This document shows, piece after piece, positions 14,961 to 63,864 of a stretch of 64,000 nt of DNA; position 1 is the first letter of the stretch, and every line of letters starts with the position of its first letter. This stretch comes from Ectocarpus siliculosus (taxonomy: Eukaryota; Sar; Phaeophyceae; Ectocarpales; Ectocarpaceae). The translations under genes were made by a program, and so were the position numbers. The DNA lies in NCBI GenBank assembly GCA_000310025.1, contig FN648650.1, forward strand, positions 3,446-67,445. Reading direction: 5' to 3'. The notes beneath the pieces are model-generated. The model searched no databases. It was not told the DNA's origin and saw nothing but the letters and a program-made list of their open reading frames with translations.

Positions 14961-17900
14961 TTAGGGCCCGCCGCTCGCGGGAAAGGGTCCGGGATCAGGG
15001 TCGGCCTCCGCTAAGAGCGTTCTGAAGGCTTCCGTGTGAAGAAACCGATACAAGAGATTCGTCTCCAGCATGTCCCTGATCTCGATATATGCCTTGTTGA
15101 GCACCAGCCTGGACACGGAGACAGCAATGGACAGTAGTGAACAAAGCATGGCAGCGGTAGGTGTCGCACGGGACAGGACAACATACAGACAAGTCATCAG
15201 CAGATGCTGGGAGAAAGGGGATTAATTCGCTGTCGTATACGCACGTACAAGAACGGATAGCAGGAGAGGGGCCACGTGACAGAAACGTTGGACATCACGC
15301 GCCGAAGTCATGCACGACGAGGCGAGGAAGAAACGGTTTGCAGGGGATAACCCTAAGCATAAGGTTGACCCCATGGACCATGCAAGAAACCCCGATCACT
15401 TCATTGCGGTTGCTTAAATAACAAACACAGGGAGAATGCTGTTCGGGAACCGTAGAAATATGAGTTGGTCACCGTGCAAGACTGCATTATCGTATATCAT
15501 TGCTATCCTACTACGGACTCTTGTCTGCGGGAAGGGATGGATTTGTTGGGTTGTCTGTAAGAAAAAAAATAAAACATATTTAAAAGTGAGGTGTCACTAT
15601 GCAGTTGTCCTCGGAATCCACCGACCTTCGCCCCGCGTCGTTCATTTCGAAAAACGCGGTGGAACCGCACTGGAAGATTTTCAGGATGCGCTCCTTGTCC
15701 GTACCGCTGTGTCGTCAAACGCGCGCCGGCGACAGGCAGAGAGTCGTAAGGGGGCAGAATGTATCAGGGGCGGCGTCAGGACGAGGAAGCTATTCTGCAA
15801 TCACGGGTGGTCTCGAGACGATGTTTTCGTCGCTGTCGAAACGAGCAAGAGACTCGGTGCTGCGACGGCGGCCAAGCAAGCCCGCGTGATGCTCGGCATA
15901 CTTTTCATGCCCCGGCGGCCGGAAACATATTTCCTGCTCTCTTCGACGCAATACAGACCGCTACACCCTACGGGTTATTTACATTGTTTCTTCCTTCTAA
16001 TCTCTTGGAGAACGATTCTCGCTTCACGATCATCTCGTGTTTTCCCGCCCGCAGCCTCACCCGATGTTGATCTCATCCAGCGCCCCGTCGGCTACGAAGC
16101 GCTTGACTATCGCGTTGAACGCCGCGAACTGACTGGCTATAGGCTTCGCAATGCTGTAGTCCCCGCTTTCATACCTGGGGCAACGATCAAAGGAAAAATC
16201 ATACAACCAACGAGTTAGATTCGGTCGAATCGTCCTGCACGCCAACGTGGAACAAACAAAGGGTGTACTGGGTCAAATATGGCTGACAGACAAGAGGAAG
16301 GACCGGTTTTCGCAGAGGATGCCTCGATCGACTCTCATCTCGGTTGCCTGCTTCGAGTTGGCGCACAACGGACGGCGTAGAACAGGGAAAATGTGGCTGA
16401 CAATATATTTCGGCTGCGGAAGAAACTGTCAAGCTGCGAATAGTGCACTATTCGCCAAATAGGTCTCGTTGTCCCCGTACCATGTCCGACGACAAGGATA
16501 TTAACACCTGGCACGGTACATGCATCTACTGGCAAAATCTCGGAACACGCGATTGGCATCCTCCATCCTCTCCGATGTAAGTTGGTTAGTTTGCATCCTT
16601 TGGCGGGCTAGACCATGAAGTAGAGGTAGAGGCCATCGAAGCACCCGAGGGACAGGTGAGCGGTGACCTATATACCGCCCAGGCGCCTAGTCCAGCGAAC
16701 TACTGTAGATGCACAATGTAAACCTCGACAAAAACACTCGCTTACGGCGCCTTCCCGGTGGCTTTTTCGATGTCAGATGCAGCAACGATAAATCCGACCA
16801 CTCTTCAACACCAATAGTTCCATTTTTCAACCAACGCCTCGCTACAGAAGTAGGTGGCTTCTTCTCCGATTCGTCTCTTACGGTTGGAGTTCTGAGCATC
16901 CTACAACCCTTGTCGCAAACAGGCACTGACCGCTGTTGTTTTGCTACCTTGCAACAGCTGCAGCATCTACTGTATCTCACTGGGTGACTGCCTCCAGAAA
17001 CATGATGGACTCCTGGCACAGCGCCCGGTGCGCGAATCCCCGGAAGGCCTCAGCCACCTCTGGCACCGTGGTCATCGTGTCGTAGCTCCACTTTGTCCGA
17101 ACCGTGGAAGCCGTTTCGTCGCAGTCGGACAAGCGGCTTTCGTCCTGACTGCTGGTATTGCTGCGGACGGAAAGTTCTGTCTCACTGCCAGAGTTCGCCC
17201 GAACCATGCCCGTGTTGCTGGTCAGATCAGTTTGGGGTTTGGTTGGATGGGAGCGGGTATGCGATGTTTGTTGGCGTGGCTGCAGTTGGCTCCGCGGGGA
17301 GAGGGATGGGGTTCCGAGCTACTGGATACGGTCGTGACTGTTGCGATGTCCCCACACTGGCCTACGGTAGGGACGGCAAAGATCCTTGGAGGGAGGGTAG
17401 CCGATGCCACGTCGTGGGAAGTAAGAAAAACAGACAAGTCTCGCACGCCCCCTGGTAGAAAAGCCACCATGCCTAACAACTCTTGACCTTGCCCCAGCAT
17501 CGCTTGTCACGCTGACAGTGATAGCGACAGTGACAGCAGTGCAACATCCGGCGGCGACATCCAGGCGCGGTGTTTCTGACAGCCGAACGCATCACTGGAC
17601 ATGTGTTTAGCTCGGCTGTTTTTCATTGGGCGGGCGTAATTAGGGTCTGGGAAGCAGGAGGGGGGTGTACTCATAGTCGTGCAATGCCGTAGTCGTTAGA
17701 CCGTTGACCTCGCATCTCTACAAAGCCGGGACGGAGCCCGCCGGGTTCTCACCGGACCAGGCACTCACATCACCAAGCGCGAAGCGCCGTGAGGTATTCG
17801 GCAAGCCGCATGAAGGGTGAGCTGCATCCTGCTAAGGATGTTCGGCATCTTGTGCTTACTTCATTGCATACGGATGGCAGCCGCGAATGACTCAATCTAT

Positions 17901-20900
17901 TTTCTGGTGCTTTCACTTCCAGAGACGGTTATCAGCACTATGGAGCTGCCTCGAGCGTGCCTGACCAATTGAAGACAGTGCCGTGCGATTATCCCCTTCG
18001 CACGGAGTGAGGGTCCTCGATCCCGCACAACATAACCTACTCGACCACCATAATGGCCTCAACAAACAAGGAAAAGAACAAAGGCAAAAAAGCACAACAA
18101 TAACCTGGTTGCCGAGCTCACGAATAAATCGGAACGTCGTTGCCAAGCGACGAAAACCAAACCCCGACGGCAAACACCGGGGGAGAGAGGGGAAGCAGGA
18201 GGGGGGCGGCAACTCATTGCACACGGAAGCTATTACTGACAGAATTCTTGTGTCGTTTTCAAAGAATACGTGCAATCACAGAAAGACTTCCCGTTCAAGA
18301 CAATGCCCCAATCAATCAAAGGGACGTTTCCCGTGTTATTTTTGCAGGGGACAGTACAGCATGGTGCCCGGATAGACAACCGACTAGGCAGAGCAGTCGA
18401 GACTCACCGTGAACCATTTCTCTTGGGGGCCCTCATTTGTTCTCTGCAAACGACGATCGGTCGCGCGATGGGGTTGAACATCACGCGTCGCACTGGGTCC
18501 ACCACGCTGCCAAAACGAGAGAAAAAGGGGTTAACAATGAACGATGTCAAGAGAGAGACGTCGAAGAGCAAGGTATCTAACCCTCTAACCCAAAGGCATT
18601 GATCACGGCGAATAGGAGGCTCTCGGCCACAGCAACCGGCATCAAGGCTAAGCTTTTATACACACAGCGACGAGCTAGGGCTCGTTCGTAGCCAAGAAAT
18701 GAACTACACTGCTTGTCCGTGTGGCGAGCAAAAAACATCGATCATCACGTGGGGTTATTCAATCTACACCCAAACAACACGACACCTTTCGTTGTTCACG
18801 GCTAACCTAAGTTGCCATTTTTCGAACCCTAAGAAATAAAAACGCACAGTCCTTGTCAGGAGCGGTATTTCCGTGTTTTTTCGGTGTGTTCCAACTAAGC
18901 CCCTCATTGCTACTACGCGAAACACCTCAGTGGAGAAGTCGGGCGGAGGAGTTATGATAGTTACCTGAGACCGAAGAGCACAACTGTCCAAAACAAGCCA
19001 ATGTTGTGGCTGTTGACGAACCCCTATTGTCGGTTCAGCGACGGCGAGAGCACGAGGCGTGTTAGGTAAGATTAGCGAGACAATCACCCGCACGTGAAAA
19101 TTGCGCCAAGGGCGGTAGAACATATAATCGAGACCGGTAATGCGGCTGAAGCTTAAGCTTCCCACGGCGTGGCTGTGATCAGAGCACGAGGTAGCAGCTC
19201 ATTGAGAAGGACATCGAACCAAAAGGAGAGCTTTGCAACGCGTTCTTCTCTGCCGTAGCCGTGTTCCTTCCTCGCCAGAGGATGGTTGCAATTTTTTGTT
19301 CAAGGATGGAGCGTTGGATTCGAGTCGATGGAACGACCTCGGAAAAAATGCGACGAGAAGGAATCTCTGCCCCTTCCTCGCCCTTCAAACGTCGCGAGCA
19401 CATGACGAGTCGATCGCGGATCTAGGCCTCGTCTCGCCCAATGCTTGCGTCAAAATGGTCGACCCCCGCGACAAAATTCAACAGGGTTCTGTTCGCACAA
19501 GCACCCCGAGACTGCCGTCGTGGCTCCGATTTTAAGAGGGTGGTGTGACGAAGGCCCTTGACCCTCATATATCGGAGCCCCCTCTTAAAATCGGAGTATG
19601 TAAGAAGGTACATAAACTTGTTATTGCGGGTCGAGTCCGTGACAACCGATTTCGACCCTCTAGCATCGGAGTCCCTTGTTATAAGGTGCCCTCTTCGATC
19701 GGAACCACGACCGTACAGCGAACCACTGGAGTAGGTATCGATATCGCATCTAATTATCTGGAATAATCTTCTTGTTGCCATTCCATGCAACCTACTCAAT
19801 TGCTAGAAGAGAAGAGGAGCAGCGCCCGGTCGAGAACATAAAGTTGAAGGCGCAGAACGACTATTGAGGTTGCTTGCTCTGTGTGGCAAATGCCTGGAAG
19901 CCAAACGTACGCCAATGAACGGCGTCCACCCACAGATGTCCAGAACACACAAGCACGAAGGACGTGCGTCAAAGCACACCCAGAAAGCGTGTCCAGTGGA
20001 AACCCTGAGCCTCGTGCTTCGCGACAATGTGGTTCCGAGAAAGATCGGTAGAAAACACAACACAGGAGCACCAGCCTACGGCGTTGGTGAGCGGGCGAGA
20101 ATATGATGGAGTTGTGAGTATTCTCTCCGTGTCACTGCGCCGCTCACCTTGACCCCGTCGGATAGGAAGTTTGTCTCCGTTAGCCGAACCACCACTGCGG
20201 AGTTAGTTGTTGGTGTTGGTAGTGGTCGTGGTACGGTAGCCCCAGCGAGCAATTCGGAGACGTGGGAAAGAAGGAGGAGCGGTGGTAGTATCGCGAAAGG
20301 CGTTAGGGTCAGCGTAAGTCGCAATAGCACCTCCGTAGTAGGTCAATCAAGGGTATCACGGGTGGATCTCTACCGCAAATCATGGCAAGCGCGCTCGCCA
20401 ATAATCGTGGCACTTTCATCGCCCGCAATCAGGCCAGCGATACAGCAGAACCGGCGTCGAACGAGTCATGCGAAAACGAAAACGAAGAGTATTGATCGTA
20501 CCTATGTCCATGACACCAAACATAGCTGCGATGCAGAGCTCCCAAGAAATCCTGAAGATATCGTCCACCAACCTGTTTGCACACGTTTTACGGCACAATG
20601 GAAGATTTCAGGCGGGGGCGAAGGTACGCAAAGCATTTTTTCTCACAAAGATCTTGGAACAGAGTCAAGAAGCTTAGGGCGAAACCTCGGTCAGCCTTTG
20701 TTGTTCCTGCATCAAGGCCACGCAAGTTTTTTCTTTGTTTCGGAGGGCAAGCTTGTGCGAACGGTTGCTCTCCTGCGCATGCTCTGACCTGAGGCATGGG
20801 CACCACAAAGATAGGTGAAACCAACTCGGAACTTCCGAATGGGCGAGCACTCCTAGGAACGAGGGTAAGCGAGAGCTTACAATTAGGGAGAAAACGTTCA

Positions 20901-23848
20901 CGTTTTTCGCTGCTTGTGATGTCTTTTGTTGCTCATAGCTCACCACACCACTGGAAGCAAACACAGCTGTATGCTGATGAGGGCGACATGGCACACCCAC
21001 ATGGCATCCAGCTCCGCCGCGAGGAAGCGGCTAGTGGACATGAAAGGGGTGCAGTACATGCATTCGCGGACGGAAAAACGAGACCGGCAGCGCGTAAATT
21101 GTTGTCGCGAGCTTAGCTGCGCGTCTCCAAGCTTCATAGCCTTGGTTGCGTCTGCAGGAGGGGCGCCTTCCGTCTCACACGGTTGTGTGTGTTACCAACT
21201 CTAGCCTTGTTCATGTGCTGTTTGCTACGCAAAACACGAAGAGTTCACGGACCGAACTCGCTGGGTCTCGTGAACGAACGCCAGCCGAACAACTACGAGG
21301 AGGGCTTCGGTTTCTGCTGTTTTAGTTGTCGTCCTTCTTGCACACGACACCTTAACGGTGTGGGTGTTCGTAACGCTCCAAACAGTAATCCAACCTTTCT
21401 TGTTCGTGTTGTCATCGTACCGCGATCCTGAACGATGAGCGTTCGCGACACGTTTTTCGAGCGCAAAATGTGCTGCGTTGAGCCGCATGCGGAGCGACTG
21501 TGGCAAAACAGAGGAACGCGGTGGTAAATACCAAATGACAGGCCAGGGGTGCCCCCGGCTAGACTCTGAAGCCCACCTCTTCTCGTCTCAGAAGGTGATG
21601 CGGGAAAACAAGATGACACAAGTCTAGAGAGCTTAGTACCCAAGAATCGATGCTAGTTTTTTCTCACTCATGGTCGTCGCCTCCCCCGTATTCGATGTAG
21701 TAGTAAGTTGGGATGGCAGTCGATACTGCGCCGATACTGAGGCTCGAAACCACGGCAAGTTTCTCCTGTGCAGACAAACACCGACAACAGATGGAAAACA
21801 TTTCGGCCTGCTGAGGCAAGCGGGGGGGGACTGGGGCGGACTCACAACCACGCGGTCATCGCATCAACAACATTGCGTTTCGAGGCGAGCACCAACAACC
21901 CTTTCCCCCTTTACTGAAAAATGTCGTGCGTTGATTAAGGCTTGGGGATTCCACGCGAGTTCGCGCAAACGGGTTGACTTCTGTCTCTTTCGGGTAGCAC
22001 CAAGGGTCGACCCACCGTCTTGCCTGCTAGACACGGTACGCACATCACGAGTATTGCTGCCAACTTACCCACATTACCCATGGTATGAACCTCTTCACCC
22101 GGGGGCTGAAGGACACGCCAAGGCGAATAACGCGCCAGATGTAGCAGCTCTCTATCGAAAAAATAATGAAGAAGTAGCCCTGAGTTTAGGGGCGAGGCGC
22201 GAAGAAGCACGCGACGAGCAAAGAGCGTAGAATAGAATCAGGCAGGGATGGTAACGAATACACGAAGACCACACTGCACGCAAGACGGGTACAGGACAAC
22301 TATTGGAAGGCGAATAAATCGCCACCCCCGACGGCAGGTTGTTTATTTGCCCGTCGCAGAATATGACAGAGTCGGCATCTGCTCTGATCGGCTTAAATTA
22401 AAACCTTGGCACCGCACTCGTGGGTCGCGAAACACTCTCGATAACCCGCTCCTTCGAGATGCGTCCAAACCTGTGGGACCGAGAACTACAGCTCCGAAAG
22501 GCTAGATTTACCACGGACCTCCAGAGCGGGTCCACGAAACAAATTGACACGGTTCGAGGTTCACCACGTCGACATTCTTAGGAAACAAGATGGCATGAAC
22601 GCCGCAGGTACATGGGGCAGGGTAGAGGGTACGCACAAACCGTCAATATAGCCGTCCGTCCCCCCCGCAACCAAACCAGAGTCGATGGGGAAGGTTCAGT
22701 GCAAACGTGAACTCTGAGAACTCGAGACCGAATCCCCTAGGGGCTCTTTCACACATGCAAAATATGTGCGCCACATGCGGACACAACCCAAGCTCGTGGA
22801 CGCCCGCGCGCTCTGTCGCGTTGAAATGTTTACCGAATGAACAAGGAACACGTTCGAAGGCCAGCCCAACAGAGTCCTGCACATCACGTGCACGTCTAGG
22901 GTCAAAGCGGCCAGTAGGCACAACCCTAAGGTCATCACCAGGTAGGCCGACCTGATGAGAGTTTGGAGAAAAAAGAGCAGGGGAATCCACCTCGTGAGTC
23001 GACAGGCAGCCTACGTGAGGTTTCTACATGGCGAGCGGGCGAAAGAGCGATTGTCGCCTATCTCTGTGATCGAGGGCCACGGAAGGTTTTTCAGACAGTA
23101 CGATGGGCAGGAGGGTATGACGCATGATTTCGGAACGGCTTGCTAACGCTGAAGGAAAGGGAGCTACCAAAGGTAGAAGGGCATCCGAGGGTTCCGGCAC
23201 GTCAAGGATGTTTTCAAGATGGACCAGAACAGTAGTCGAACTGTGTCTAAAGCGTGCTTACGTACAGAGAAAGTTTTTGTAGACTCCCACACACCATTGG
23301 AGATGGCGATTTCTTCTCTAATTTGCGTGAAGCCTGAAAAAATATCGCTTGCACACGGCCACCACAATGAACAAACACGAGGATTCTTCGGAGACAGTCC
23401 GACCAAGTAGGAGGCAGCTATCTAGCTTAACTCTCCCAGCAATACAACATACGTACAATAGCTAAGTTTCACATGCTGAGAGCACGCAAGCCAAGCAGCA
23501 CACCGAGCCGTACAGAGCATGTACTAAAGTCACAGGTGACGCATGACGTGGGCGCTTGGGCGAGAAAAAGGGAAGGAAAACAGGGGAGGATATGTACAGA
23601 GAGACGAGAGAGTAGAAATCGTACAGCCATGGCGCCAACGGCGGCCGAAAGAGAAGAGAGTAGCAATCGCACCTGGCGCGGATCTCCAGCACGTTGCGAT
23701 ACTGAAACATTTTGAACAGCACCATCGTCCCCAAGACGAGCATGGCGGAGCCGAAGATGAGATGAAACAACGCCTGTTCCACTGCTCTCTCGTTGAGAGG
23801 CGCGACACCGATAGCACCGACAGGGTTGATGGGAACCACGACAAACAT
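14961..23848 (-). CDS. Seven-transmembrane receptor with C-terminal RGS domain
   Basis: Exons on the minus strand: 23848-23673, 22951-22834, [at least one unplaced in 22833-22106], 22105-22069, 21765-21668, 21030-20944, 20572-20502, 20194-20148, 19023-18965, 18506-18408, 17160-16981, 16174-16061, 15108-14961 (stop TAA). Every placed junction has GT-AG borders and matching phase. The product carries hydrophobic helices such as ALFHLIFGSAMLVLGTMVLF (TM1), YLVMTLGLCLLAALTLDVHV (TM2), LAVVSSLSIGAVSTAIPTYY, MWVCHVALISIQLCLLPVVW and HNIGLFWTVVLFGL. Six of seven are visible; TM3 falls in the unplaced gap. The C-terminus is an RGS box split over three exons, with FRGFAHRALCQESIMFLEAV, a DEINI motif and RDMLETNLLYRFLHTEAF. 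RGS domains speed GTP hydrolysis on G-alpha, so this fusion would both sense a signal and turn G-protein signalling off at the membrane, as in plant AtRGS1. The start Met at 23848 is tentative; an in-frame TAA lies just upstream. Confidence 0.8.
19528..19597. repeat. Short inverted repeat in an intron of the 7TM-RGS gene
   Basis: CGATTTTAAGAGGG near 19528 reads back as CCCTCTTAAAATCG near 19582, separated by about 40 bp. It lies in the intron between exons 20194-20148 and 19023-18965. It could be a decayed small MITE. Confidence 0.5.
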
Positions 23849-47588: not shown

Positions 47589-50500
47589 TCAACCGTCTTG
47601 GTCCACAAGAGTGACGTTGGGGGTGCGTACCCTTCCCGCCCTACTGACGCTCTCAAGCAAAACCCATGAGCCTACCGCCGCGTCCGGATCTCCGCTGTAC
47701 TTGTCTAAGGGCAGCTTCATCTTGCGCGTACTGTGGTCTACTTCCAGCTGCACACAGTAGTCGTACAGGTGGCGCTGCGGAGATTGCTGAATGATCAACC
47801 CACCGAACCACCCCATGCCCAGCCGGACAAGCACTCCACGTTGCAAAAGCAATCTGTCAAGAGCAGCGGGGGTAAATTCTTGAAGGCGAAAGCCCGCCGG
47901 GATCTCCATTCCCTGCGTCTCGTCCTCCGGGTCGTCTGGGTCCATGCTGTCGTCCTCGTCCAAAAGAGCTAGCTCGTCGGTCTGGGATTGAGACATGTCT
48001 GCGACGAAGGGTACCGTGAAACACGAGAAGGAACGTACGGGTGTCATCGCCGTTACTCAACTGAAGTGAACACACCATTTGCTCGTAGACGTGACGCGGA
48101 AACAGAATATCAGCAATATCCCAAACAGCACAAGGAAAGATGAACAAAAAGGACAATGAATTAACTGTAGTCTTGTAGTGCCAATCAAACTTACTGTCGT
48201 CAAGACGAACAAAAAGGACAATGAATTAACTGTAGTCTATGTAGTGCCAATCAAACTTACTGTCGTCGTCTTCATCGCTGTATCCAGCGCCCTCCATGCC
48301 CTCCCCGCTGTTGGCACCGTTGCGCTCATCCCCGACGACCGGCTCGCGCCTTCCGGCGCCCTCCTCCTCCTTCCCCTCGGGCCCATCGCTGCCGTCCTCC
48401 GAACCTCCTTCGTTCTCGCTGGAGTCTTCATCGTTTGCGAAGGTGTACGGCTGGTCCAAACCCTCCAAGGTGATTCGATCATCGCCTGAGCCGTCCACGG
48501 TCATCGCCATCCCGCACTTTTCGAAAAGGCGGTGTCGGTACCCCTGATTGCTGTTGAGTTTTTCCATGGCCGCTCCCGCCCATTGAGTGATCAGTACGCG
48601 CCGGTCAGAAGCTGTCAGCGACGCGGTTTCCCACCTCTCGATGTTGTCCGACTGATCGAGCCACTTGTCCATCTCGTTGCCAACTTCCACCTTGAGAAAT
48701 CGTCCGGCTCCTGCATCAACTGGCTGCACCTCGTCCGTGCACTCCGCAGGGCCAAGCCAGGCGAGAGTGTTGCACTGCTTCGCAAGATACCCCTTGAACT
48801 CGTCCGTGGTCTGCGCGTGCAAGTTGTCCATTATCAGAATGGACCTCGCCTTGGGGAGCTCACCCCGCCCGCGGATCAGGCCTTCGCGGTACGACCTCTT
48901 GGCCCACTCCATGCAGAACTTTTGGTCCGCCCACGCATTCTGCTGGAAAAACACGTCGACGTCCTTGTGGTACGCGGCCTTCTCCACCGGCGAAATCCGC
49001 TTCCCCTGGCCTCGGAAAATCACCGAAATCCGCATAGTCTTCTCACCCGGACCAAAGATGACTTGCATGGTGCACTGCCTTTTCTCTAGGCCAGCAAAGG
49101 GCTGCGAGATGGCTACACGCAACGCGCCTGTTTTTTCCCACGTGCTGATCAGCCCGTTCACGAATGGCAAAGGCACTTGATCCACATTCCAACGCTCCCA
49201 GAGCTGGAACTGACCGTACTTGGGATCTCTGGACTCTCCCTCCGCGACCGTCGACATCGCCGACACGTCCGATGCCTCGGGTGCCCTGTACCGTACCGGC
49301 TCTTGCAGGAGCTTGCGAAACCGCCGGTGGAAGCGCTGGATCTTTGGTAGGCGCTCTTCAACAGACTTGTTCTTGAGGTTGCTCCTGCGCCGTTTGGACA
49401 GCTTATGCCTCTTTGCCCATTTTCGTGCCCACCTGAAGGACGCGCTGAACGCCGCCGCCCGTTGGTCCTCAGGGTGATTCTCTTGCACGAGCTTCCGGAA
49501 GGTGACCGTCAGCCACAGGGTCGACACCTTCAGCTTCCTCCTCCGCCGCGCCAAGAACATATTGTGCAGCTTCTTCTCTTCCTCAGGAAACCACCGCTTT
49601 GGCTGCTGTTTGGCAAGGAGGGTCTTCTTCACGTCATCTGCTGCCGATTGGACTATATTGGCCTCGTCCTGAGCCCACTTCACGATCAGGCTGTAGTTAA
49701 CCTTGAGACGGTCCTCTAAGTACTGGAGAGGCGTGAGCTTCTCCTCCTTGAAGAGGTCTGCGGCGTCTTCCTGGAGGAGGCGCAGCTGGGTCACAACATG
49801 GGCTTTGAACCTGTAGTCGTATCGCTTGCGCTTCACAGCTCCACGAGTCTCCTTGACTTTGCGGTCCGTAAAGCCGTCGCTTTCCAAGTCGAGATCGCGG
49901 AAGCGCTTCCGTTGGAGGACAAACGAAGCCGCCCCCCTGGCACCATCGACCTTCACGTGCCAACAACGTCCAGGCCCGGCTTCTTCCCACGGCTGAACAT
50001 GCCCTTTGGGAGTCTTCCCCAGCATCCGCTGCAGCCGCAAGCTGTTGGACATGTTTGCATTGCTATGCTGTGTTTTCACGTGGATCCCAAGTCCTTGCTC
50101 GTTCACGAAGGTCATGGGACAGTGAGTGCACGGTAGGCGCCGCTCTGGGGCCGGAGGTGGGAAGTTGATGCCCGACACATGCTCTGTGACACCACCGCGA
50201 GTCCGCTCAATCTGCACGGCGCGGTAGGAGAAGGGCGGAATTGAAGTGCAGGTGATTCAACGAGCTGTGGACCTAAAATTGCGTGGATGTCGATGGCAAA
50301 ATATATAAATCTATGCAGATGGGGCGGGGGGTGATTACATGACCGTCTCTCGTGTGTTTGTTTCACGGTGCTGCAAAAAAAAGGTTACAAAATACGGTTG
50401 GCACGGCGCTCGTGTACGCGTTCTTTTTCGCCACTGTGTCTACTGTGCCGTCCTTGCCTTCCTCAAAAACGTGAGGCAAACGGAGAATATTTGAAAAAGT

Positions 50501-53037: not shown

Positions 53038-54459
53038 TCAACTAGACGCTAGTGCGCGCGATACATAAATAGCGCCTTCCCCTCCGGCCCTAACGTACGT
53101 CATAAAGGTCCTGACTTCCACCTTCCCGCCCTCTGAATCTGAATAACCGATGCGCCCTGCTTTGCTACACAGGTGGAGGTCGACCCCCCTTCCCCAAAAT
53201 GTCGGATGCCCTCGCCCCCTTGTGGAGGCCTTGACAAGGTCGAACACCTTGGAGAAGACAACCAAGGTCTAAAAAACACTCAATTTCTCCCATTTCAAGG
53301 CCTTGGTTGTCTTCTCCAAGGTGTTCGACCTTGTCAAGGCCTCCACAAGAGGGCGAGAGCATCCGACATTGTGGGGAAGGGGGGTGGACGTCCACCTGTG
53401 TAGTTGCGTCGCACCACCTATCCTCCCTGAGTGTAGCGCGAAGTGCGTTGGGTTTTCTCCTACTCTTCTCGCCATGTCTCTCAACGCTGTTGTTGCTTCC
53501 GACCTCGACATTACTGCCCACCGTCCCTGCTTGACCGACTGCATGAGGGGCGCGGTACTTCCTAACTCTGGGTGCACGTCAAGCAGATTCAGCAAAATCT
53601 CGAGCGCCCCCATCTTCTCAGCCATCTGTCCCACTTCCTCGTCCCGCGTTACTCTCTCTCTCGTCACTGCCGCGCCTCGCCTCTTTTGGTCCGCTTTCGA
53701 TGCGCGAAAAGTCACTTCTACTCTGTCTGCCCGCCTTCTTTCGTCCCACGCTAGCCGACACGATCCTTCGAAGAATACGAGGTTCCCTCTCGTAAGACAA
53801 AAATCGGCGTGTACTAATCCGTTGTGGTAGGCCCACAGCTCAGACGCTCGGCACAGCAAGAAATACGAGAGAGCGATCCCCATCCACGTCACTAGTCTGA
53901 AAACATCCGTCAGCGCTCTTTCTCTCCCCGCTATAATCATCGGCACGGTGAGCGGTTGCCTTACCAACTGTTTCGTCTCTGCCCTCGCATGCAGTCTGTC
54001 TATTGCGTTCCCAACAGCTGCCACTCTGAAGTGCGACGTGGGCAGCTCCCAGCCTGCGTACAGTTTATGGAAGTACTTGATAGCCGCGAGGTACCCCTTC
54101 ACCGTTTGGCTCTGGTTCTTATACACTAAGCACCTCGATGCCATAAACACAGTCAGCTCTCTCACTGTGCTATCCACGCCGTCCTCCTCGTACAACCATG
54201 GACTCAGATTCGCTTTAGCTCTTTCATCTGTCCACGTGTCCCACTTGCTGTGGTATCCTTTCAGCGTGCTCGCGTTCAGGGAGCCGTGCTCCATTATCCT
54301 GAGGAGCCTTTCGCCTTCATCGCTCGTTCCCTTCGTCCCGTGTTCGCTTCCTGTACTTGAACACGTTAGGGTCATTACACCTTCTTTAGTTCTTTTGCTC
54401 ATCATTCTCGTCTTACTCTTATTACTTCTTTTCTTTGCACGCTTGCCATGCGGCTCCAT
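53038..54459 (-). pseudogene. Tyrosine recombinase (integrase of YR retrotransposon), disrupted
   Basis: The main frame runs 54459-53403 and contains the catalytic Arg in SYFLLCRASELWAYHNG and the His-x-x-Arg block HFALHSGRIGG. Just after GGATQL the frame enters a 233-bp foldback MITE (53168-53400). Genuine recombinase sequence resumes at 53167, where a frame ending at 53038 carries the catalytic Tyr in FMTYVRAGGEGAIYVSRALA. Without the insert the frame would continue for some 18 codons, then needs one more single-base shift to reach the Tyr block. In the family this enzyme inserts circular cDNA by strand exchange, without an integrase-type target duplication. The broken frame makes this copy inactive. 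Confidence 0.88.
53168..53400. mobile_element. 233-bp foldback MITE inserted in the recombinase gene
   Basis: Two arms of about 100 bp (53168-53268 and 53303-53400) are near-perfect reverse complements with a loop of about 34 bp. The ends read CACAGGTGGA...TCCACCTGTG and are flanked on both sides by TA (53166-53167 and 53401-53402), a Tc1/mariner-type target duplication. It is non-coding and would form a long hairpin when single-stranded. Confidence 0.9.
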
Positions 54460-54602
54460 ACGAGGCCATCCATTCTTTGGTTCTGGAGTTTCTCTTGCAG
54501 TATCATTTCAATTAGCTCTCTTCCGGTGTCTCCGATGTCTTGCATTCGCCAGTTATTATCATGCGTGAGTCTTTCCACATTGACTTCTACGTCCTCTGAC
54601 TT

Positions 54603-55094
54603 TCATCTAGATATCCCGTCCGCGAGGGTATTCTCGCGTCCCGGGATGTGTTTTGCCACATGACACCATCCGTTTTCAATCTCCATGCGACCAAGCAGTC
54701 TCATGAGCAGTCCCGCTTGCCTGTCTCTCGAGCCCCCGCATCTGTTCACCCACGACACCGCCGACATATTGTCTCCCCTCATCATGATAGCTTGTCCGTG
54801 TTGCGTCGGATTTTCTCCCACGACCATTTGGACCACCCAACATGTAATTATCATTCCGAGCAGTTCTAGCGTGTTGATCGTGATCGCGCTGGTTTCTTTG
54901 GCTTCCGCTTTCCTTTTCAGCTCCGCGGTAAACGCGGGTTTAAATCGGTACCGCCAGAATACCTTTAGTTCGGGACAGTGTCCGCCGACTGCGTCGAAGC
55001 TAGCATCCGACAGGTAGTGACGGAAAAGCGTGCGTTGGACGTGGTTAAAGAAAAACGCGATAAGTGACTCTCCTTTCTCCGCCAGTTTACCTTT
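54603..55094 (-). pseudogene. RNase H domain of the YR retrotransposon
   Basis: The frame open from about 55094 to 54603 encodes EAKETSAITINTLELLGMII, then an acidic RGDNMSAVSWVNRCGG block and a C-terminal HIPGRENTLADGISR, typical of the RNase H that follows reverse transcriptase in DIRS-class elements. It is in a different frame from the reverse transcriptase upstream, which stops at 55093, so a frameshift separates the two. Confidence 0.8.
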
Positions 55095-56226
55095 ACAGCG
55101 CCCATCTCCAGAAGTCTAGGTCTCCATGGAACTCCCAACCGAGACGTACCTGCCTCTTCTCTCTTGACCGTCTGTTAGCCTTGTCGTGTAGGCCGGTGAG
55201 GCGTAAGAGGTGCCATACGAAATATTTCCCCGCCCTCATGACATATGTCAGGTTCCAGAGTTTTCCAGCCATACTCAGGACTTCTTGCACACTACCGAAT
55301 GCTCTGGTCTGTGGCCAATCGTTCTCTAGCGCGGTCCTTATCGCATCAACCCTCTCATGTGTTGTTGCGATCGTCATTTTATGGGTGTCTATCGTGTGTC
55401 CAAGAAAGTTCACTTTCGTGTTCCAGTCTGTGCTTTTCTTCGGGGCGAGAATGGGCGTTTGGCCCGCCTCTGCTGGCCCGAAGAGTCTCACACAGTCAGA
55501 CGCTAATAACGCGGAGGCTACCAGCGCTGAAGCGTCGTCTGGCGCATGTTGTACTTTCAGAAAAGCGAAATCGTCTACGTACACCCCGCACGAGAAATCG
55601 TGGTGGGGTCCGCCTCCGTCATGCGGTTTCACGTTGGCGTCTCGGGGCACTCGGGCGGGTGGTCCGTCTTCCCACGGCTCGACTATTTTTACATGTGACA
55701 TCATTTCGATCCCTTCGTCTACTAGTTGTACGTTGTGTACGTTGGTGTTGCGGTGTGAGTGTTCAGCAGCGGACGCCATGACTCCCCCAAAACCGGGCGA
55801 ACCTGCCCATCCAAACGTCAGTCTGAAGTCGGCGACTAGTACGTCTCCTATCACATAGCAGATTTTTTGTGCATCGTCTGGCGCAACTCTCACGTTTCGG
55901 TAAGCGTTGTTCACGTCCGCTGTGGACACTAGTGTCATCTTGTCAGGCCATTTGACTCTCAAGCGCGTTATTTCAGCAAGGAAAGCAGGCAGAGTCTCTC
56001 CGCACAAACAGTCGGGTACTTCTTCTGTTACCGTATCCACGTTGACTCCTCCCTTCTGTCCGCGCATTAGTTTGGGGTCAATAGAAGAATCGTTGATGAT
56101 TCTGATTTGTTTTCCTACCACAGCTCCTAGCGGCGATACGCGAACGCCCTTCATGCGAGCCGCGTCCGCTACGTCGAATACGAGGCATCTGTTCTGTTCG
56201 ACGTCGTCTATCAGCTTCTTCCACAC
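55093..56226 (-). pseudogene. Reverse transcriptase of the YR retrotransposon
   Basis: About 377 codons. Visible blocks are RIINDSSID, the STADVNNAYRNVRVAPDDAQ finger/palm region, RLTFGWAGSPGFGG, and the catalytic CGVYVDDFAFL (the YVDD box lies near 55572-55583), followed by a NFLGHTID thumb-side motif. These mark a DIRS-type polymerase. The frame starts by a shift from the spacer frame, which stops at 56244, and ends at a TAA before the RNase H. The domain itself is uninterrupted; the frame changes at both ends indicate decay unless some are programmed. Confidence 0.88.
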
Positions 56227-61862: not shown

Positions 61863-63864
61863 CTAGGCTGGAGGAGAGGTATCTCTGTGGATGTTTACCA
61901 CCATTATCCCAGCGATTCTCCGAGTCGGTCCAGGCTCTTCTGACACTGAACTTTGCCGCATAAACGATGGCCATGATGCTGGAACGCTCTCAAATGCAGG
62001 AACATCATCCGATCCTGCGCGTGGCCTCAACCCTGGCGAACTCTCAGGTGACGACGCTGCTCCGACAACTCGCTTCTTCCCTGAAGCGTAACACATGCCA
62101 ACCACCTCGACAATGATAACAAGAATCATCAACACATGACCTGCCACCAACACTCCCGAAAATACAGCCTGGCTCTGGTCGCTCTCGCAAGACACATCCA
62201 CTTTCAGCAGCAACAAATCAAACATGCTGAGGAACACAATTACATGACCCCCCCGCGAAAGCCACATGTCGGACTCAGACTCGTACGGCGACAATATTTC
62301 GAACAACGAAGAAAAAAACAAAGTAAGTAGCATGGTGATCGCAATCTGGGCCGCATCGTTCGGAAAGATAAAGACGACTACACCCGTCAGCATGACACGG
62401 CGTCCGCACTCGACTACTTCGTAGTAGAATCGCTCGGGCCTGTACGGCTCCCACAGCCCGGAAATCGACAGAGCTACTGTCTTGTCCGCACCAGCGTCGG
62501 CCAGAACGTGGCGACGTTGAAACAACAGGGCGGCATAAAGCAGGGGGATTCCCACCGGGTATACAACAATCATGATCGCTGCGTACACTTTAAAGGCCTG
62601 GTGCTTGGCATCCGTGCAGTGAATACGGTAGTCCGCCCGAAGGTATTCGACGTCGTCATCAAGTATCTCGCAAGCGAAGGTTTGAAACACCGTTGATGAA
62701 ACTGAGGAATACACCAGGAAAGTCAACAACAGTAGGGCCGTCTGATGTTTGTGGTAGATCTTCTCTACTCCACCAGTGTCGCCGGATGCGCTGTGCCTAC
62801 GCAACACGATCCCGTACGTCATCGCCAAAAATCCAACAACGACCAACGGTCCTATAGTAGTGACGAGAAGTCGGTCGTGGAAGTCCATATCGGACCACAA
62901 GCACCCGGCCGCGAGCACGGAACCGATGTCAAAGTTGATCACGTCGATCGCGCTCAGAAAGTCTTGGTACACGCCAGGATAGGTGACATTGGCCGCGTCA
63001 GCAAACTGCGCGGGAGAAAGGCATTTTCATTCAGGTGGAGTTAGGACATGGCGTCAAGCCCCCGACTTGATTCGCTATTATCCAAACGTGTGTGTACCCG
63101 TCCTTTCGTTCAGTGCTCTATCGAGCTTCCTCGCTCTACAACAACCTATTATGTACAACGGGGGCGTACCTGGGTCAAAATTTGCCACACGACGACAATG
63201 ATTTTCAACGACTCGACGGGAACCGCTCCAAGTACCATGCGACGGAAGCACCCCAAGATCCCGTCTTCATGCTCCGTCGACAACATGTACTGGAAAATTG
63301 CCACAATCGCAAAGACTGTGACAATCACGGCGATGGCAGCGATGACCGTGAGTCCTCGGCGTCTTGAGCTCGAGCAATGCGTGCAGGTGTGAGCAAGCGA
63401 TGGAGAATAGTCGGTTTTGCACACTGCGCAATCTGCAGAGGTAGAAATGGGCAAACGCAGGTGGTAACAAGGGTACGGGTAAGAAACGTGCAAAACCGCA
63501 ACCAAGGTTTCTGACACCTTCCGACAAATCATCACAAGCAAGCTCGTACGTCCCTACCTTCCACTTCTCGCTCACATGGTCCCTGGTATCCTGAGGCACA
63601 AAAGTTGTCCGCTCCCGTCTTACCCCCTGCGCAGGCATCCGCATTGTAGCACGCCAGGATGATGACGCTTTCGTAAGTTGCACGCCAGTAGCCTTCTTCA
63701 ATCTTGAGCGTTTCCAACGTCAATCCACTTTCGTCGGCCGAAGTGTGCTCCAATGGGACCTCGCATGTCGGCGTGACGGTACCGTCCGCGATGGTGCAGT
63801 TGGAGCACTCGTTCCAAGCAGGACATTCGACGCACACTGTCTCAAAGCGTGCATTGGTGTCTTC
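61863..63864 (-). CDS. Cys-rich multi-pass membrane protein, 3' part
   Basis: Three exons, 63864-63558, 63432-63170 and 63005-61863 (stop), agree in phase; the 5' end lies beyond the window. Exon A is extracellular and Cys-rich (ETVCVECPAWNECSNC, ACAGGKTGADNFCASGYQG). Exon B has CAVCKTDYSPSLAHTCTHCS, then a first membrane helix (LTVIAAIAVIVTVFAIVAIF), and ends WQILTQ. Exon C opens FADAANVTYPGVYQDFLSAI and carries about six more hydrophobic helices, including LLVTTIGPLVVVGFLAMTYG and HVIVFLSMFDLLLLKVDV, before a Ser/Pro-rich cytoplasmic tail. The pattern, an EGF/ephrin-receptor-like Cys-rich ectodomain followed by a TRP- or GPCR-like membrane block, is common in large stramenopile surface-protein families. 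Ligand or ion specificity cannot be read from the sequence. Confidence 0.75.

Follow-up and report, generated by a model that had tools for sequence, protein, structure and literature searches.

A 13-exon Ectocarpus siliculosus gene for a seven-transmembrane protein with a C-terminal RGS box, a putative membrane-tethered GAP with several paralogs

Our sequence data confirmed that the minus strand of positions 14961-23848 of the window, the whole stretch of 64,000 nucleotides analyzed from Ectocarpus siliculosus, carries a real 13-exon gene for a seven-transmembrane (7TM) protein with an RGS box. Judged by its architecture, an RGS domain combined with seven segments, the predicted protein belongs to the known 7TM-RGS kind, and the locus probably encodes a membrane-tethered GAP for Gα that would be gated by its 7TM part. 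The fusion of a 7TM part to a C-terminal RGS box, put forward in a preliminary description of this DNA, was borne out by the Pfam match, the hydropathy of four homologs, and paralogs that join TM to RGS exons with matching introns.

The 13 coding exons, read on the minus strand with splice sites tested by script, join into a frame of 459 amino acids with no internal stop and one terminal stop. All 12 introns of the splice model have GT-AG borders and agree in codon phase (incoming phases of exons 2-13: 2,0,0,2,2,1,0,2,2,2,2,2), with a mean length of 626 bases. Exon 1 (23673-23848) holds the start codon, a short N-terminus, and TM1, with a TM1-ICL1 region similar in paralogs C13, C24a, and C15; exon 2 (22834-22951) covers the end of ICL1 and TM2, with its junctions kept in C13; and exon 3 (22078-22179; acceptor ..actcag, donor gtaatg) encodes TM3 and ICL2. 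In nine copies from the C26 and C68 arrays, TM2-TM3 lie in one open stretch. The alignment with C13 also supported exon 4 (21668-21765; TM4), exon 5 (20944-21030; TM5), exon 6 (20502-20572; ICL3 with DDxFxI, a motif also found in the four-homolog TM alignment A4, and most of TM6), exon 8 (18965-19023; TM7), and exon 9 (18408-18506), in which the end of TM7 is followed by a basic, presumably cytosolic tail. Exon 7 (20148-20194; end of TM6 and outer loop 3) is continuous with exon 8 in C13, C24a, and C24b. The RGS box starts after a linker in exon 10 (16981-17160), continues through exon 11 (16061-16174), which contains the Asn of EIN, invariant in a comparison of eight boxes, and exon 12 (15626-15706), and finishes with the stop codon in exon 13 (14961-15108), all four exons being supported by Pfam and by alignment with the RGS box of paralog C10. 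An in-frame stop lies 11 codons 5' of the ATG. Because no in-frame ATG was found just upstream in the C13 paralog, the model is least secure at its start codon, and an extra 5' exon is possible. The outer limits of the preliminary description were exact, with the ATG at 23848 and the stop ending at 14961, and its chain of minus-strand GT-AG exons in agreeing phases was retained, with 13 coding exons in place of 12. The TM3 exon that it had left to be found is now placed, which brings its six hydrophobic helices to seven hydropathy peaks, and the RGS box occupies four exons (E10-E13) rather than three.

The seven peaks come from simple hydropathy, taken as the mean of four aligned homologs (three in the case of TM1) with adjacent peaks merged, and lie at about residues 25-54, 56-90, 89-120, 133-158, 172-200, 198-226, and 234-264 of the model. 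Lysine and arginine are concentrated in ICL1 (3), ICL2 (3), and the tail (9), every other loop, ICL3 included, having one. An N-out, C-in topology is likely because ICL1, ICL2, and the tail are basic and outer loop 2 is acidic, and the RGS box would then be on the cytosolic side; contrary to the simple charge rule, acidic residues outnumber basic ones in ICL3, by two to one. Motifs common to the four best TM parts are RSxxLV after TM1, YxxRxIRLxVxF after TM3, DDxFxIxxEL before TM6, and LSxxxPxR after TM7. None of the Pfam 7TM families exceeded its cut-off in four members (best, 7tm_3 with an E-value of 0.061 in one member), the window protein matched no 7tm Pfam profile at E-values up to 1, and a profile of the four TM parts matched no PDB chain up to the same value.

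The RGS domain (PF00615) is the single Pfam-A family detected in the spliced protein at E-values up to 1 (E-value, 3.3e-7; bit score, 31.1, with the cut-off at 23.9; protein residues 313-441). The match spans profile positions 3-116 of 117, in keeping with the complete box described earlier, and it falls within the 17160-14961 exons, as read from the spliced model. When the unspliced genome was searched with PF00615, three other places were listed and the window gene was absent, as would be expected of a box split over four exons. A single-sequence search of the PDB returned RGS9 (E-value, 0.25) and an unrelated phage protein (0.79), and a profile of four family RGS boxes matched 20 distinct sequences up to an E-value of 0.01, all of them RGS domains, led by RGS2 (1.7e-7). 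Animal RGS2 is soluble and lacks a 7TM part, unlike the window protein; its Cys-(E/Q)-E stretch, EIN, and late Asn line up with the window box. These Cys and late Asn positions may bear on the choice of Gα and are a lead in that respect.

The exons of the model are short (47-180 bases) and were picked by hand, and GT and AG are common dinucleotides, so a chance chain of splice-like signals and open frames with no gene behind it was considered. This reading is extremely improbable in view of the comparisons with other genes. The RGS box of C10, joined from its own exons and spliced-aligned to both strands of the whole window, each divided into 6 chunks, recovered E10-E13 with the same three introns at a score of 134.2, none of the remaining 11 chunks scoring above 54.6; the C15 box in the same test recovered E10 and most of E11 (101.2), followed by a wrong continuation. 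The alignment of the C13 paralog (score, 835) starts at residue 28 and reaches the last exon, and all 11 C13 introns were in the modelled phase. Nine of these 11 lie exactly at modelled junctions, the E4-E5 intron being displaced by about 4 residues and the E9-E10 intron by about 2, next to alignment gaps in loop or linker; the E7-E8 junction is continuous coding sequence in C13, which accounts for its 11 introns against 12 in the window gene. Over 413 codons the two genes share 41.9% identity, with 184, 150, and 257 differences at codon positions 1, 2, and 3 (0.45/0.36/0.62), and the DNA differs in 90 of the 173 codons that encode the same amino acid. Such codon-position differences fit a frame under selection and, together with the lack of an internal stop, led us to reject a pseudogene.

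A misjoining of two adjacent genes, one for a 7TM protein (E1-E9) and one for a soluble RGS protein (E10-E13), could be suspected from the E9-E10 intron, which at 1247 bases is longer than any of the other 11, and from the poor conservation of the linker. We consider this very unlikely, since the model has no stop between the 7TM and RGS parts, and the order of TM exons, basic tail, linker, and RGS is repeated in C13, C24a, and C24b, each with a phase-2 intron at the E9-E10 point or at most 2 residues from it. C24a (score, 544; 33.4% identity over 419 codons) has 13 introns, of which 9 are at exact junctions, 2 are within 1-2 residues, and 2 are extra; C24b (score, 437; 32.9% over 374 codons) has 11, of which 8 coincide with modelled junctions, 1 is a single residue away at most, and 1 is extra, the aligner having put E10-E11 elsewhere. 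A different doubt concerns what the RGS box does. The L, C, E, and S of LCxES, the F and L of FL, a late Phe, and the Asn that ends E(I/V)N or QVN are invariant in all eight family boxes compared, and the Asn is presumably the main switch contact known from RGS4. All eight also have Ser at the position that we take to correspond to Asn88 of RGS4. This Ser could point to a real 7TM-RGS gene whose box serves as a scaffold or effector instead of a GAP, or whose product is mainly an exchange factor, and some RGS-like boxes do bind Gα without strong GAP activity. Such a role is unlikely given the invariant Asn and the Naegleria 7TM-RGS proteins, the boxes of which are described as GAPs that accelerate hydrolysis on several Gα subunits (PMC9283941).

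The 7TM-RGS architecture and the residues invariant in all eight boxes make a GAP role our best guess. As a membrane-tethered GAP, the protein would have a short outer N-terminus, the 7TM part, and a cytosolic tail formed by the complete RGS box. The 7TM anchor would keep the GAP for Gα at the membrane, where the RGS box would speed GTP hydrolysis on Gα; a cue received through the 7TM part might then alter RGS activity or the location of the receptor, such that Gα stays active. We infer GAP activity, ligand gating, expression, and a self-activating Gα partner, as well as the topology given above, and the dampening of G-protein signalling at the membrane suggested in the preliminary description would follow by analogy with known systems. 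As for the input of the 7TM part, a gamete pheromone or some other outer cue is a matter of speculation.

In plants, Gα loads itself with GTP and a 7TM-RGS protein speeds hydrolysis, the promotion of GTP hydrolysis being described for AtRGS1 (PMC3386157, PMC3718340). The window protein resembles AtRGS1 of Arabidopsis in having an N-terminal 7TM part and a C-terminal RGS box (PMC5575782). The RGS parts of the two align weakly (phmmer E-value of 0.0013 in a set of four sequences), and the 7TM part of AtRGS1 has no significant similarity to A4 (hhalign probability, 0.14%; E-value, 0.41), a provisional AtRGS1 sequence serving as reference in both cases. Unlike AtRGS1, the window gene has several to many paralogs in its genome, partly in tandem. 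Common descent with the plant AtRGS1 family is not shown by these alignments, and the hhalign miss leaves room for a distant descent. By description rather than by sequence, the window family is also like that of Naegleria fowleri, for which 28 7TM-RGS proteins and several Gα subunits are reported, in its architecture, its many members, and its several Gα subunits (PMC9283941). Several of the Naegleria proteins are described with large outer domains (EGF-like, lectin, GPS), in contrast to about 25 residues before TM1 in the window protein. Among the four diatoms studied in PMC3727952, Thalassiosira pseudonana was the only one reported to have a complete RGS domain.

Candidate partners are present in the same genome, in which 22 Gα matches were distributed over five multi-exon loci (C3, C1, C19, C479, and C7, with 3-5 exons each; L010-L017) and single weak matches in C11 and C2. 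Switch II reads DVGGQ at all five loci. Switch I reads RVRTSG in C3, RIRTTG in C1, RTRTTG in C7, and RVMTSG in C479, only its end being readable in C19; the residue before the switch I Gly is thus Thr or Ser at the four loci read, and the Gly itself is kept in all four. We take these Thr/Ser and Gly positions to be the residues named in two studies. According to these, the Thr before the switch I Gly is an RGS contact that is changed to Asn in grasses (PMC3386157), and a Gly-to-Ser change makes Gα insensitive to RGS (PMC9283941). For Ectocarpus, six Gα paralogs are reported, all expressed in gametes, and the discussion of the pheromone receptor in that source offers only a suggestion that it is a GPCR (PMC3879662). 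A search for Gγ gave no match in this genome, and the controls were equally blank.

To place the window gene among its relatives, the full protein was compared with the genome (189 Mb in 492 contigs), which gave at least 52 places at E-values up to 10. Twelve of these are the window gene itself and were removed before paralogs were counted; the remaining 40 are distributed over C68 (16), C26 (11), C24 (5), C13 (3), C20 (2), C15 (1), C97 (1), and C87 (1), all such counts being lower bounds. The window gene, C13, C24a, and C24b were modelled over most of their length, and seven further loci have TM2-TM3 and RGS exons in line, three in C26 and four in C68 (in one of the latter, the last RGS exon alone was seen), giving 11 genes with the modelled four. 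Family RGS boxes preceded by hydrophobic stretches with like motifs occur at two loci in C20 and one each in C15 and C10. Of these, C15 and C10 had their 7TM parts tested against shuffled sequences, and the spliced alignment was matched by 0 of 100 shuffles for C15 and by 30 of 100, hence no better than shuffles, for C10. With this reserve, some 15 loci seem to hold both 7TM and RGS parts. A single part was found at five more places (two in C26, three in C68); the count leaves out C97, the weak places at C15:5098027, C476, and C11, and also C87 (E-value, 5.4), which gave one long and unconvincing alignment.

The C26 (4737875-4838619) and C68 (860-91272) regions form tandem 7TM-RGS arrays in both orientations (L030-L032, L034-L038, L041-L044, L046, L047), in which the alignable DNA of the copies agrees at 67-98%, some copies reaching 95-98% over 3 kb. 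The number of paralogs would be smaller if C68 is a haplotype copy of part of C26, as it may be. An RGS gene in C14 (L002) was rejected as a paralog, its neighbouring frame being a PAS domain (E-value, 5.9e-18) and its RGS box failing to align with the window family (E-value of 0.25 among three sequences). At this locus (C14:1830281-1833631; L002, also L008-L009), the RGS frame stands beside a PAS/LOV-like frame with GRNCRFLQG, which we take to be the LOV motif, and a weaker PAS-like frame, and the locus could be a LOV-RGS photoreceptor gene.

A search by title and the start of the abstract, subscription papers and preprints aside, found no literature on a 7TM-RGS family in brown algae. The combination of 7TM-RGS proteins with self-activating Gα is described as the dominant mode of G-protein signalling in plants and other bikonts (PMC9283941). 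If our reading is true, a many-membered 7TM-RGS family alongside at least five Gα loci would extend this design to another multicellular lineage, and the family would be a candidate set of receptors for the alga. It is conceivable, and at present rather doubtful, that the alga senses its surroundings, perhaps including gamete pheromones, through some 15-20 tandemly expanded 7TM-RGS receptors that silence several self-activating Gα subunits, and that 7TM and RGS parts were joined independently of plants.

Apart from the 7TM-RGS and Gα genes, EsV_1_7_cys (PF19114) had at least 150 matches in this genome, since 150 of the 880 candidates were scored and every one of them matched; 14 control genomes gave none. 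An expansion of EsV_1_7_cys is a mark of brown algae, in line with a likely brown-algal origin of this genome. Scans of the whole window for tRNAs and Rfam families gave no match. Elsewhere in the window, also on the minus strand, a 369-aa membrane frame with multiple helices lies at 61863-62972, with a TRP channel match below the cut-off (E-value, 0.0091). Two frames of 396 and 377 aa at 53269-56226 had no Pfam match at E-values up to 0.01 and, by eye, are like a retroelement recombinase and reverse transcriptase. A 663-aa frame at 48226-50217 matched the DDE_1 endonuclease (E-value, 1e-9), which points to a DDE-type transposon.
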